In this document: positions 53,514 to 57,686 of the stretch, piece by piece
Layout of the letters: every line of letters starts with the position of its first letter
Position numbering within the stretch: position 1 is the stretch's first letter
Source: Natronobacterium gregoryi SP2
GTDB lineage: Archaea > Halobacteriota > Halobacteria > Halobacteriales > Natrialbaceae
Direction of reading: 5' to 3'
DNA length: 64,000 nucleotides
Assembly: GCF_000230715.2 (NCBI RefSeq)
Contig: NC_019792.1
Coordinates: 1,240,001-1,304,000 of the forward strand
Position numbers and translations under genes: made by a program
Notes under the pieces: generated by a model
Databases searched by the model: none
What the model saw: the letters and a program-made list of their open reading frames with translations, nothing else
What the model was told of the DNA's origin: nothing

Positions 53514-53670
53514 GCGTTGAGAGGTCTAGCTGGCCTCGAACGAAAAACGTCTCGGTCGTCGGTCGTCCTCGAGCAACTGAAGAAAAATCACACGGTATGG
53601 ACTCCCACACCCCCGTGCTCGAGTCGTAACGTATTTCAGTCACACCTCTCGTAAAATGAGTTGCAAGCGT

Positions 53671-53743
53671 GTCCGGGTTGGGGTAGTGGTTATCCTTCAG
53701 CCTTGTGGAGGCTGAGACGCGGGTTCGATTCTCGCACCCGGAC
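53671..53743 (+). tRNA. tRNA-His (anticodon GTG)
   Basis: Eight-base-pair acceptor GTCCGGGT/ACCCGGAC including the encoded G-1, anticodon stem CAGCC/GGCTG with loop TTGTGGA, and T-arm GCGGG/CTCGC-type with loop TTCGATT. CCA is not encoded. The 3' half is duplicated downstream (53844). Confidence 0.93.
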
Positions 53744-53883
53744 TTTTTCACGACGAACGGACGTGAGAAGCGAAAAGTCCCGGGAGGGATCGAACCCTGC
53801 CAGTCGCAGCGGCCGAACGGAGTGAGGCTGACCGTCTGGCTACGGTTCGATTCTCGCACCCGGACTTTTTCACGACGAACGGA
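53722..53883. repeat. tRNA-His 3'-end direct repeat (40 bp) around an 82-bp spacer
   Basis: Bases 53722-53761 (22 nt of tRNA-His T-arm and acceptor plus 18 nt downstream) recur exactly at 53844-53883. The spacer contains a 39-bp cassette (53801-53839, beginning CAGTCGCAGCGGCC and ending GACCGTCTGG) found inverted behind tRNA-Val. The arrangement resembles attL/attR of an excised integrative element. Confidence 0.8.
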
Positions 53884-53957
53884 AGAGTCGACAGTCCACT
53901 CGAGAATCGAAGCCAGGAGTGTCGCCGAGCGTCGACCGGAGCCTCGAGAACCTGTAG

Positions 53958-54449
53958 TCAGGCCTCCGGCTCTTCGTCTTCCCAGTAGCTGACGGTCTCG
54001 CCCTCGCGGAAGTAGCCGTTGACGCTCCGCTCGCCGTCGCCACCGGGTGGCGAGCCCGCGAAGACGCCGACCTTCCCGGAGTCGGGGTAGACGGTGACGT
54101 CGGGGTCGTTCATCGTCGAGAGCAGCAGATAGCGCAACGCTCCCGGCGTGTCGTTGACGACCCGGTGTGCACCGTCTTCACCCGCCGGGAAGGCGACGTA
54201 GTCGCCGTCCTCGAGCGACAGCGTCTCGCCGTCGAGTCGCAGCGTGCCGGTCCCCTCGAGGACGAACAGCGCCTCCTCGTTGCCAGTGTGGTAGTGGTAG
54301 GGCCAGGAGCGCCGTCCTTCGGGCAGTTCGTAGAGGCTACAGCCGATGTCCTCGCCGCCGGCGGCCGCGGCCAGCTGTTTTCGCCGGAACTTCGTCTCGC
54401 CGCGCTCGAGAGTGGACCACTCGAGGGCGTCTGCGTTCGTCTTTCCCAT
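53958..54449 (-). CDS. Cupin-domain protein
   Basis: 163 residues. The conserved cupin motif 1 is P-Y-H-Y-H-T-G-N-E-E-A-L-F-V-L-E-G (about 49-65) with H-x-H-x5-E, and motif 2 is P-A-G-E-D-G-A-H-R-V-V-N near 89, giving the three metal-binding His/Glu. Cupins bind a divalent metal and act as dioxygenases, isomerases or sensors; the substrate cannot be inferred. The terminal G-E-T-V-S-Y-W-E-D-E is acidic. It is divergent from the SOUL-family gene. Confidence 0.82.
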   Translation of the reverse strand: MGKTNADALEWSTLERGETKFRRKQLAAAAGGEDIGCSLYELPEGRRSWPYHYHTGNEEALFVLEGTGTLRLDGETLSLEDGDYVAFPAGEDGAHRVVNDTPGALRYLLLSTMNDPDVTVYPDSGKVGVFAGSPPGGDGERSVNGYFREGETVSYWEDEEPEA

Positions 54450-54552
54450 ACGAAGGATCTCTCGCCGAGGCATCTTGGTTGCTTGCCGACGTATCGGACC
54501 ACTGTGTGTCGCTGGGCCAAGAACTATCGGTCCGGTCGTTCTACGAGCCTCG

Positions 54553-55209
54553 ATGGCCCGGAAATCGTCTCTCGACCTGGCGCTGGCTGGTGGTCTCGTC
54601 GGCGTCGCTGGTATGGTCACCGTCAGCGGTCTCTGGAGTCTCTACCAGCGGCGAACGACCGAAACCGTCCCGTATACGGTCGTCGATCGCGCAGGCGGTT
54701 TCGAACTCCGCCGGTATCCACCGACGGTGCTCGCCGAAACTACCGCCGATTCCGATCGGAAGGCTTTCCGCCGGCTGTTTCGCTACATCGGCGGCGAGAA
54801 CGAAAGCGCCGAGTCCGTCTCGATGACCACACCCGTCGAACTCGGGACCCGGAGCCAGAAGATATCGATGACCGCACCCGTCGAAACCGCCTCGAGCGAC
54901 GACGGCACAGTCCGAATGGCGTTTTATCTTCCACAGGAGCACGACCTCGAGTCGGCACCCCAACCCACGAGCGAGGAGGTCGAACTCGTTGCCGCTCCCG
55001 AACGACTCCTCGCCGTTCGCAGATTCTCCGGCCGTCGGACCGACGACCGCGTAACTCGCGAGAGCGAGCGACTCCTGGCATCGCTCGAGCGGGCGGGACT
55101 CACCGCTGCCCGGGAGCCGTTCTACATGGGCTACGACGCTCCCTGGACGCTGCCGTTTCTCCGGCGCAACGAGGTTGCCACTCGGGTCGCATCCGGCAAG
55201 AGCGTCTGA
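54553..55209 (+). CDS. SOUL-family haem-binding-type protein
   Basis: 218 residues with one N-terminal helix (L-A-L-A-G-G-L-V-G-V-A-G-M-V-T-V-S-G-L). SOUL/HBP features follow: F-E-L-R-R-Y-P-P near 50, S-M-T-T-P-V-E and S-M-T-A-P-V-E near 92 and 106, and F-S-G-R near 158. The paired M-T-x-P-V-E repeats are diagnostic. The helix suggests membrane anchoring. Members bind haem or other hydrophobic ligands. The ATG at 54553 is preferred; the upstream frame overlaps the cupin gene. Confidence 0.85.
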   Translation: MARKSSLDLALAGGLVGVAGMVTVSGLWSLYQRRTTETVPYTVVDRAGGFELRRYPPTVLAETTADSDRKAFRRLFRYIGGENESAESVSMTTPVELGTRSQKISMTAPVETASSDDGTVRMAFYLPQEHDLESAPQPTSEEVELVAAPERLLAVRRFSGRRTDDRVTRESERLLASLERAGLTAAREPFYMGYDAPWTLPFLRRNEVATRVASGKSV

Positions 55210-55450
55210 GCGTCCAGCGGTCCAGACGCTCGTCGTCTCTCGATGCGCAGCCGATCCTAGACAAACAGGTGACAGATTCGGGCAGATATAACTCTTCACG
55301 AGGCACGCAACTGATTACCGGTCCGACACGCGTGAACGGGCGACCGTCTCGCAAAACGTCGGAGCGACTTGGCCAGCGGTGCCAGTATCGACCACTGTCG
55401 GAAAGACGGAAACGATGAATTGATAACTGAACAACACATATAGGTGAAGT

Positions 55451-55762
55451 GTGAATCCAGACCTGTGGCTCGCCCGCAAGATTAAAACCCTCTCGTATAG
55501 AGAGGCTAGCGCAGTCGTTGTCGTTGCACTCGTCGCTGCCGTCCTGTACGGCAGACTCGGGTTTGCCTTCTTCGGTCCGCTAGCGGCTCTTCTCTGGATT
55601 CCGTTCGTCGGGATAGCCACGATCTGGATTCTATTCGACTCTCGAGAGCGCGGTTTCGAGTACCCATCAGTAGTCGCATTGACCGTCGCTATTCTGCTGT
55701 TAACTACCCTTCCAGGAATCGCAGCACTGGCAACGTACTACTACTATACACGACTCCGATAA
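55451..55762 (+). CDS. Small multi-pass membrane protein (GTG start)
   Basis: 103 residues with at least three hydrophobic segments: S-A-V-V-V-V-A-L-V-A-A-V-L-Y-G, F-G-P-L-A-A-L-L-W-I-P-F-V-G-I-A-T-I-W-I and V-V-A-L-T-V-A-I-L-L-L-T-T-L-P-G-I-A-A-L. An ACATATAGG box near 55436 is too close to be a normal leaderless promoter, leaving the start uncertain. No family was recognised; a short-lived lineage-specific protein is possible. Confidence 0.55.
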   Translation: MNPDLWLARKIKTLSYREASAVVVVALVAAVLYGRLGFAFFGPLAALLWIPFVGIATIWILFDSRERGFEYPSVVALTVAILLLTTLPGIAALATYYYYTRLR

Positions 55763-56063
55763 ACACGGTCTCGAGTACGAGCTACCCGGTCGCTTCGGTA
55801 ACCAGCATCGAGAACAGCGAGAGACAAACCTCGAGTGCGACGTGACAGGCAACGTGTGCCGGCCGCTACCGTTCGCTTCCAGAACGAAACGAAGTCAGCG
55901 AGGGCGTCCGAAACAGTCGATTACAGTGAGAACAGCAGAGAGTCGACGACTGCAGTCTGAGAGTAGTCAGCGAACGATCCTGATTGCCGCTTGCGGAGAG
56001 ACACACAAAGGACTGTTTCTCCGATGGATACGTTTCACTCGAAGGAGCTCTTTCGCGGAAAAG
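55763..56063. other. Intergenic, nothing recognised
   Basis: About 300 bp with no gene, RNA or clear repeat before the degraded tRNA-Phe copy. Confidence 0.4.
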
Positions 56064-56087
56064 TATGTCGACTCCCGGATCTGAGCC
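56064..56087. repeat. Degraded copy of the tRNA-Phe 3' end
   Basis: TATGTCGACTCCCGGATCTG and the following AGCC match 20 of 24 bases of 56493-56516, the 3' acceptor/T-arm of tRNA-Phe read on the plus strand. It lies 405 bp downstream of the tRNA in its transcription direction and is preceded by a GAACGAAGTGAG-type hairpin (56130-56160, reverse strand). Confidence 0.55.
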
Positions 56088-56183
56088 ACGCAAACACCGT
56101 CGCTCGCTTCGTTCACGGCTTCGCCGTTCGCATCGCGGCTCTCACTTCGTTCCGAACCGCGCCCCGCTCGCACTGTGTGTTCT

Positions 56184-56438
56184 CTAGTACTCCGCCAAGC
56201 GTCGACTGATAAGTGAACCCAGACGACCGCATTCGGTTTCACTCATCCGTTCAGGCTTGCCAAAGCACTAGTGGCGGGACAAGCCTGCACTGCTGATACG
56301 GACTGCTGTCCCGATGTCCCGGTGCAACCGCGAACCCTCCTGCGGTCGCGCCGGAACTGACTGACAGCAAACCGTATGAGTCGAATCCGGCCGCGTGGGC
56401 CGGTTCGACCCGTCGGTCGACGGTTGGAACGGGACTCG
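56184..56438. repeat. Two linked family B units, the second split by a family A insertion
   Basis: Unit 1 (56184-56271) is core type 2 with GTGAACCCAGACGACCGCAT. Unit 2 (56268-56438) is type 1: CTAGTGGCGGGACAAGCC at the left and GACGGTTGGAACGGGACTCG at the right. The junction CTAG is shared. An 87-bp family A element (56294-56380) sits inside unit 2 and interrupts its core. Confidence 0.85.
56294..56380. repeat. Family A element nested inside a family B unit
   Basis: TGATACGGACTGCTGTCCC to TGACAGCAAACCGTATGAG, with inner arms GGTGCAACCGC and GCGGTCGCGCC. Removing it restores a B type 1 core like 40333-40420, so A inserted after B. Confidence 0.85.
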
Positions 56439-56494
56439 TTCAAATCTGGCCGGAATAGCAGCGTCTCCGCTCACGGAGTTGTTCGCAGAAAATA

Positions 56495-56568
56495 TGCCGC
56501 CTCCCGGATTTGAACCGGGGACAGCTCGATCTTCAGTCGAGTGCTCTCCCAGTCTGAGCTAAGGCGGC
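56495..56568 (-). tRNA. tRNA-Phe (anticodon GAA)
   Basis: Reverse strand: acceptor GCCGCCT/AGGCGGC, anticodon stem CTCGA/TCGAG with loop CTGAAGA, and T-arm CCCGG/CCGGG with loop TTCAAAT. CCA is not encoded. A degraded copy of its 3' end is at 56064-56087. Confidence 0.95.
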
Positions 56569-56770
56569 CTACTTCTGTCTCGGGCCATCGTATAAAAAAG
56601 GATTTCGAATTGCGACGGCGACCAGTCTGTCCCATCGTGTTCGGGCCGACCGAACCGAAACAGACGAAGTATGCAACGAATACGACCAAGTGTCTGCGTG
56701 TTAACGGCTGCCTGTTGGAAATTCGGATATTCAAGTCACGCTTTTCCGCTCTGGCGGGTAACCAAGTGTT

Positions 56771-57217
56771 ATGGCGTCCCTTACCTCGAGCCAAACCGAA
56801 AAAAAACTCTCGGCCGACACAATCCTCGAGTTACTCGCCAACAGGCGTCGCCGTTACCTCCTCTATGCACTCCGAGGGCGGGAGGACCCGATCGAATTGT
56901 CGGCGCTCGCCGAGCAGATCGCAGGCTGGGAGCACGACGTCGATCCGGACGAGGTCGCGAAAAACGAGTACAAAAGCGTGTACGTCTCGTCAGTTCAATG
57001 CCATGTTCCGAAACTGGCTGATGCAGGCGTCGTCAACCACGACGAAGAGAACCACACCGTCGTGCTCTCGGACAATTTCGAACAGCTCGAGCCGTACCTC
57101 CGTATCGTAATCGAAGACGAACCCGAGAACTCGAAGCTCTACTCGGCCCTGCAGGCAGAGTCCCGAGACGGCTTTTTCAGCCAGATCCGGGAAAACGTCG
57201 CTCGACTCAAACACTGA
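56771..57217 (+). CDS. DUF7344-type winged-helix protein
   Basis: 148 residues. L-S-A-D-T-I-L-E-L-L-A-N-R-R-R-R-Y-L-L-Y-A-L (13-34) followed by L-S-A-L-A-E-Q-I-A, then S-V-Y-V-S-S-V-Q-C-H-V-P-K-L-A-D-A-G-V-V is the haloarchaeal DUF7344 helix-turn-helix pattern. The rest is an acidic tail. These are putative DNA-binding regulators without known ligand. It lies between tRNA-Phe and the tRNA-Val cassette. Confidence 0.75.
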   Translation: MASLTSSQTEKKLSADTILELLANRRRRYLLYALRGREDPIELSALAEQIAGWEHDVDPDEVAKNEYKSVYVSSVQCHVPKLADAGVVNHDEENHTVVLSDNFEQLEPYLRIVIEDEPENSKLYSALQAESRDGFFSQIRENVARLKH

Positions 57218-57423
57218 CGCCACACGGATTACAGGGACAGCGGCCTGGTGCTGGTTCGGTGTGGGGGCCCGAATCGGACGGGAACGGAGCTTCGCGCTGG
57301 TTGCTAGCTCCGCCGAGGATGGACGCCTCCCGTCTCGGTGTCACACATCGAGGAACGACCTGGCGAGTTCGAACCACTACTCGCAGACACGCCTCTGGCT
57401 CGCGGTGTTGATCGCTAGAGAAA

Positions 57424-57504
57424 TGGGCTCGAGCGGGTTCGAACAACGCCCAGACGGTCAGCCTCACTTCGTTCGGCCGCTGCGACTGATCTGGTTCGAA
57501 CCGT
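57424..57504. repeat. tRNA-Val 3'-end copy plus the shared 39-bp cassette
   Basis: Bases 57424-57445 copy the tRNA-Val 3' end (57553-57574) with two mismatches. Next to it, 57450-57488 on the reverse strand is the same 39-bp cassette found behind tRNA-His (one difference). T-loop-like GGTTCGAAC motifs also occur at 57367 and 57493. Confidence 0.7.
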
Positions 57505-57515
57505 CCTCGCGTAAC

Positions 57516-57550
57516 ATTGCTGCCGCTCACGCGTTGTTCGCGGCAGCAAT
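57516..57550. terminator. Hairpin behind tRNA-Val
   Basis: ATTGCTGCCG and CGGCAGCAAT form a perfect 10-bp stem with a 15-nt loop, 2 bp past the 3' end of tRNA-Val. It could help 3' processing or termination, or be repeat-derived; no T-run follows. Confidence 0.5.
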
Positions 57551-57552
57551 AG

Positions 57553-57626
57553 TGGGCTCGGGCGGGTTCGAACCACCGACCTCGGCCTTGTAAGGGCCGC
57601 GTCATGACCAGCTAGACCACGAGCCC
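57553..57626 (-). tRNA. tRNA-Val (anticodon TAC)
   Basis: Reverse strand: acceptor GGGCTCG/CGAGCCC, anticodon stem CGGCC/GGCCG with loop CTTACAA, and T-arm with loop TTCGAAC. CCA is not encoded. A partial 3' copy lies at 57424. Confidence 0.94.
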
Positions 57627-57686
57627 GCACCCGGACCAAGTCGCCCCGTCCGAATAACCTTTACTTTCTCGCGGTGCAGCCAATCT

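Follow-up and report, generated by a model that had tools for sequence, protein, structure and literature searches.

The window, a stretch of 64,000 nucleotides (positions 1240001-1304000 of a genome of 3.79 Mb that forms one contig), carries a tRNA-His(GTG) gene at 53671-53744 on the forward strand and a tRNA-Val(TAC) gene at 57552-57626 on the reverse strand, both called by ARAGORN. The last 23 nt of tRNA-His (53722-53744, repeat D2) form the first of two direct copies of its 3' end. They are followed on the forward strand by a spacer with a degenerate hairpin (53745-53777), an inverted, degenerate copy of the tRNA-His 3' end that reaches the tRNA end (53778-53796, with GATCGAACC at 53788-53796 as its T-loop part), a 39-bp cassette (53801-53839), and the second direct copy (53844-53866) with 17 bp of downstream DNA (53844-53883 in all, D2). 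The direct repeat (53722-53761 and 53844-53883) is 40 bp long and 100% identical, and therefore extends 17 bp beyond the tRNA. On the reverse strand, tRNA-Val is followed by a spacer (57504-57551) with a hairpin formed by ATTGCTGCCGC (57516-57526) and GCGGCAGCAAT (57540-57550; repeat I5), an inverted T-loop copy (57493-57503), a 39-bp cassette (57450-57488), and a T-loop box with a copy of the tRNA-Val 3' end (57424-57444). A decayed spacer with an inverted T-loop at its end (57366-57423, reverse strand) comes next, as the remnant of a second unit.

The first-pass annotation had described the two cassettes as nearly identical, and comparison of 53801-53839 with the reverse complement of 57450-57488 indeed gave one difference in 39 bases. 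The order it claimed for both loci (tRNA, spacer, T-loop-like motif, cassette, and a 3' end copy of that same tRNA) also holds; the 'T-loop-like' motif is present at both and, more exactly, repeats the T-loop region of the host tRNA in inverted orientation. The wider similarity between the His and Val loci (repeat I1) covers 68 nt at 82% identity, and is a BLAST match of E 6e-14 in the whole genome. When the His unit was compared with the whole genome, a third copy was found behind tRNA-Ala(CGC) (G000:C1:887947-887991), again as tRNA, spacer, inverted T-loop, core, and then a copy of the tRNA-Ala 3' end. Either an exchange of cores between units or independent conservation may account for the near identity of the His and Val cores.

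Read in the tRNA direction, a unit follows the stretch from the T-loop to the 3' end of the tRNA gene and consists of a spacer of ~30-60 nt, frequently with a hairpin; R'', the inverted T-loop of the host tRNA; L'', one half of a short variable stem; AGTC-GCAG; a variable stem-loop; ACC-GTCT; L'; and, after a few nucleotides, R', which is the T-loop plus the 3' end again. The R' box reads GTTC(G/A)A, like the T-loop of the tRNA. Most units are 110-145 bp long and gene-less, within a range of ~90-290 bp that holds no evident genes. The 39-bp cassette forms the apex of a conserved hairpin of ~75 nt, in which the inverted T-loop is followed by the short variable stem, a GCAG/ACC internal loop, a variable apical stem-loop, and the direct T-loop with the tRNA 3' end, the two T-loop copies pairing as the outer stem. 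The cassette itself thus holds the inner stem, the internal loop and the apical stem-loop, an arrangement that we refer to as the type I core.

The cassette is placed in the inner part of the hairpin because RNA folding, pairing and covariation data give a nested hairpin. RNA folding of the His and Val units yielded this structure with z-scores of -3.2 and -1.8, respectively; folded as DNA, the His, Val and Ala units had z-scores of -2.5, -0.1 and -3.5. In an alignment of 32 type I hairpins, 94.4% of the cells were paired, compared with 79.0% after shuffling and 18-50% after sliding. Moreover, 98 cells had changed on both sides, and the covariation score was 0.427 as against 0.163 for the control. 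The first two inner-stem pairs were Watson-Crick in 51 and 47 of 51 units, compared with ~18 for shuffled partners, and the apical stem varies yet stays paired (CGGCC/GGCCG, CGCC/GGCG, TCCG/CGGA, CGC/GCG).

A decayed unit lies behind the tRNA-Phe(GAA) gene (56495-56568, reverse strand), where a copy of the tRNA-Phe 3' end with 4 mismatches in 22 is found 408 nt downstream of the tRNA (56065-56087, reverse strand). This unit is interrupted by a dispersed, MITE-like, imperfect palindrome of ~87 bp (TGATACGGACTGCTGT...ACAGCAAACCGTATGA, 56294-56379), of which this genome has at least 40 copies at 85-93% identity; similar sequence occurs behind other tRNAs too (L049, L050, L065). A spacer-type hairpin (CGAAC..CGTGAG) was also seen directly behind 15 of the 43 tRNAs of this genome (for example, L040 and L049), even where no unit remains; at control sites 1 kb from the tRNAs, the same regular expression matched 4 of 43.

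A matched R''..R' pair was present at 12 of the 43 tRNA loci of this genome, compared with 2 of ~200 controls, and ~11 of 45 tRNA loci had their own 3' end copied downstream. The hairpins fall into at least three types, the type III core (TCAGAGAG...CGACCGTGG) having been recognised by eye. Only the count for this genome is unbiased; loci elsewhere were mostly chosen by pattern, and frequencies outside this genome are therefore biased.

The first-pass annotation had proposed searching haloarchaeal genomes with the cassette. The strict core gave 37 matches in 31 of 295 haloarchaeal genomes and no control match, and at all 30 strict-core loci that were read, the T-loop and tRNA 3' end came directly after the core, with the upstream tRNA copy recognisable at nearly all of them. 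A looser type I motif (a GTCGCAG...ACCGTC hairpin) occurred in 161 of 196 genomes, well above the reversed control, although these matches include non-tRNA sites. For the type II core, ~95 matches were obtained in 53 of 196 genomes (2 in the control), and 27 of the 30 type II loci read lay behind tRNAs. In a set of 207 tRNA loci, mostly picked for holding a pattern, 109 had units, 158 in total, with a median spacing of 126 bp (IQR 117-144), at 30 isoacceptors and with up to 4 in tandem; arrays often held 2-4 units. Each unit fits its own tRNA, and the units at one tRNA are alike across genera.

Words resembling GAACGNAGTGAG are recurrent in haloarchaeal intergenic DNA, and the looser pattern is sometimes found off tRNAs, as chance similarity or membership of a general dispersed haloarchaeal repeat would have it. 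We regard such an origin as extremely improbable; for the strict core, it is refuted by the 37 matches against none in the control, by the tRNA 3'-end copy at every strict match read, and by the matched inverted T-loop and the covariation. The refuting outcome named in the first-pass annotation, with most hits away from tRNA genes, did not materialise for the strict core; the looser core does occur off tRNAs in a single family, and a protein gene also has it at its back.

In that haloarchaeal family, GTCGCAG...ACCGTC hairpins with the stem CGGAAGTC/GTCTTCCG stand in intergenic DNA away from tRNAs, and these non-tRNA hairpins (L524, L527, L532, L534, L536-L540) frequently precede GGGGCTTTC. The protein-gene case is a unit of the same design behind a long ORF (...ISGDD*) in G090, with a tandem pair in G157; the 3' end of the ORF (TTTCCGGCGATGACTGA) is copied after the hairpin (L550 at ~5694; L551 at ~5873, reverse strand, in tandem in L551). 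Elsewhere, the downstream tRNA copy has GTTCACAATCC in place of GTTCAAATCC, an identical one-base insertion at several tRNAs and in several genera (L492, L495, L505, L507, L509, L512, L513, L522, L523).

When orthologous tRNAs of congeners were compared, the units differed in number, order and spacer-core combination. With letters for the Val units, the arrays read A-B here (B decayed), D-B-A in G224, B-C in G233, E-C in G295 and C in G242; unit A is common to four genomes at tRNA-Val, and Val spacers are combined with differing cores. Gapped pairwise identities of such short spacers are too permissive alone, and the key Val case was therefore compared ungapped. Beyond the Val unit of this genome, the DNA agreed at 46 of 58 positions with the first Val spacer of congener G233; for the first Val spacer of this genome, the value was 18 of 58. 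One 129-bp unit thus stands here between tRNA-Val and the G233-matching spacer and is absent in G233. The alignment indicates that one Val unit is precisely added relative to this congener. At tRNA-His, congeners have one or two units, with cores swapped or private. Private sequences go beyond what duplication alone would give, and loss in other congeners could leave them. Identical tandem units were found in G103 (tRNA-Gln) and G167; from identical-unit arrays such as that of G103, it follows that tandem duplication also acts.

Larger elements (2.9-28 kb) were found in four tRNAs; a tyrosine recombinase gene stands at the end of three of them, and a type II hairpin marks the att site of three, two of which also have the recombinase. 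The G118 element, of 23.7 kb, separates tRNA-Val(TAC) from a mini-unit, which is Val unit A. On the side away from the tRNA it ends in a type II hairpin and a 3'-end copy, with a tyrosine recombinase gene (PF00589, PF02899) ~100 bp further in. The layout is the same at tRNA-Val(CAC) of G119, with a 27.7-kb element, a PF00589 recombinase, a type II hairpin at the att site and an adjoining mini-unit. In G263, a 17.6-kb element in tRNA-Tyr has a recombinase at its end and adjoins four mini-units, and no recognisable hairpin of its own was seen at that end. The 2.9-kb element in tRNA-Arg of G153 has a type II hairpin at its end, and no recombinase was found in it. Where left ends of full-size elements were read, they had no match among the mini-unit spacers. 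Genes of virus families are present in the G118 element (an ATPase-like phrog_1979 protein; L548/L095) and in the G119 element (phrog_2231 and phrog_21165 proteins; L546/L547), and these two elements are therefore probably proviruses.

The G118 recombinase is 38-39% identical to the integrases of SNJ2, HHPV4 and HRPV9. Of 245 genomes, 144 have relatives at E <= 1e-70; a close relative is absent from this genome. At 10 of 30 related int loci read, the 5' flank of int held tRNA 3' copies in antiparallel orientation to the gene. The hairpin was sought in pleolipovirus att sites and was absent from those read, which belong to the best-known recombinase relatives (SNJ2, Halfgib1, Harhisp1 and LSV-48N). 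DNA searches of plasmids and phages gave no match, and short gapped patterns run against the viral collection gave mostly chance matches, none followed by a credible tRNA end. The genome sequences analysed showed no excised circle, no active helper and no presence/absence pair within one species.

Taken together, we consider it somewhat probable that the units are miniature non-autonomous integrative elements, targeted to tRNAs and moved in trans by haloarchaeal tyrosine recombinases. Each gene-less unit would be closed by a folded site of the attachment type, and the cassette would form the conserved interior of that site. Units would enter and leave at the T-loop and 3' end of the tRNA through site-specific recombination for which haloarchaeal tyrosine recombinases act in trans, with the crossover presumably at the T-loop and the hairpin folded as single-stranded DNA. 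Insertion beside the T-loop would swap the 3' end of the tRNA for the copy in the unit and shift the old end downstream; the unit would bring its own 3' end copy, and the tRNA would therefore remain whole. Tandem arrays would arise from repeated insertion or from unequal exchange between copies. The first-pass annotation had suggested a small element that captures or rebuilds the tRNA end. Since all 30 strict-core loci read lie at tRNA ends, a small tRNA-end-associated unit stands, and an integration-type origin is its best reading; the capture or rebuilding of any tRNA end encountered is not supported, as each unit fits its own tRNA and units at one tRNA are alike across genera.

The same hairpins could be structured RNA elements transcribed behind the tRNA (a trailer, a terminator or a small RNA), the tRNA 3' ends having been copied and the arrays resized by ordinary tandem duplication and gene conversion. 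The strong covariation of the stems, the reproduction of the hairpin by RNA folding and the existence of identical tandem units all agree with this, as does the excess of G.T over A.C departures on the tRNA-sense strand (29 to 5). That excess reflects site variability equally well, the transition/transversion ratios being equal on both sides. An RNA origin also fits poorly with a distribution that is patchy by tRNA and by genome, with the variation in number, order and core among congeners at one tRNA, with the use of the same sites by larger recombinase elements, with the unit behind a protein gene, and with the lack of an Rfam match; we rate it as unlikely, if worth keeping in mind. With Rfam 15, only the tRNAs reached a gathering score over 53640-57640. 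A known Rfam RNA and a tRNA pseudogene were considered as readings and dropped. That the units are passive scars of full-size elements, immobile and unconstrained after internal deletion, would agree with the finding that such elements occupy the same tRNAs and end in the type II hairpin, and with decayed units such as that at tRNA-Phe. Independent decay would hardly give sizes as narrow as those found (median 126 bp, IQR 117-144), and the scar origin is further opposed by the presence of the same unit A at tRNA-Val in four genomes, by the covarying stems, and by spacers that match none of the left ends read from full-size elements; we find it quite improbable.

Miniature elements moved in trans remain the preferred reading. 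A haloarchaeal integron-like cassette system, in which a tyrosine recombinase acts on folded single-stranded sites and tRNA T-loops are the insertion point of arrays, seems to us rather unlikely; if it exists, tRNA genes would be platforms at which gene-less and proviral cassettes are added, lost and reordered. On the preferred reading, about a quarter of the tRNA genes here, and tRNA genes in most sampled haloarchaea, would be accompanied by undescribed miniature elements in which the fold of a recombination site is preserved and which mark the entry points of integrative elements and proviruses. An uncharacterised tyrosine recombinase would then have many natural substrates in these units, and an origin of structure-based recombination outside integrons would become testable. 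They explain partial tRNA copies beside haloarchaeal tRNA genes, and probably some spurious ORFs too. The units are real, widespread and apparently undescribed: the sections consulted of the open-licence literature (including PMC8371274, PMC3119063, PMC9897764 and PMC9668308) contain no ~125-bp hairpin units or arrays of this kind; the first-pass annotation knew of no described element with such an arrangement.

The SNJ2 archaeal integrase family is reported, in the part of PMC8371274 consulted, as restricted to Halobacteria. Like SNJ2-type elements, the units target the 3' part of a tRNA, whose 3' end is then found copied on the far side, and related recombinases head full-size elements in the same tRNAs. 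A tRNA 3' direct repeat at both ends, as in tyrosine-integrase elements, is present as well (40 bp, identical, for His). In contrast, the units are ~125 bp long and have no gene or recombinase of their own, which only the larger neighbours in G118, G119 and G263 encode. The SNJ2 att core is ~14 bp of the acceptor end, whereas the unit repeat begins at the T-loop, and the SNJ2-type viral att sites read lack the hairpin of the units.

Cis-mobilizable elements (CIMEs) are kilobase-sized, gene-bearing, att-flanked stretches of DNA with no recombinase gene. The units resemble them as att-flanked DNA that lacks a recombinase gene and lies in tandem with a recombinase-bearing element at one site, as where they adjoin the full-size elements of G118, G119 and G263. 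They differ in size, in the absence of genes and in their conserved covarying hairpin; a unit corresponds roughly to the att region alone, at 30 isoacceptors. Formation of CIMEs from integrative conjugative elements is discussed in PMC5704250. Partial tRNA copies left by prophage integration in Haloquadratum (PMC3119063, consulted in part) and archaeal tRNA fragments and partial copies (PMC9897764, likewise) are also comparable, in that a partial copy lies downstream of a complete tRNA gene. Prophage-left copies mark kilobase-sized islands, and the sections consulted describe no ~125-bp hairpin unit or array. MITEs share with the units their shortness, lack of genes, multiple copies and ability to fold back, but have fixed terminal inverted repeats and a short target-site duplication. 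The ends of a unit are instead set by the host tRNA, and a MITE reading was dropped.

Archaeal integrons with attC arrays have been described (PMC9668308, as far as consulted). As in an attC, the folded site of a unit is variable in sequence, with paired outer (R) and inner (L) boxes and a variable apex, and as in integron arrays, tandem units change in order and number. Nevertheless, the units are not an integron: no integron integrase IntI (TIGR02249) scored over the cut-off in any of 99 haloarchaeal genomes, and R' is GTTC(G/A)A rather than the GTTRRRY of integrons. Integron cassettes have ORFs, whereas the units have none, and the platform of the units is a tRNA gene. The units are best filed with tRNA-targeted tyrosine-recombinase elements, as a variant that is laid out like an attC array.
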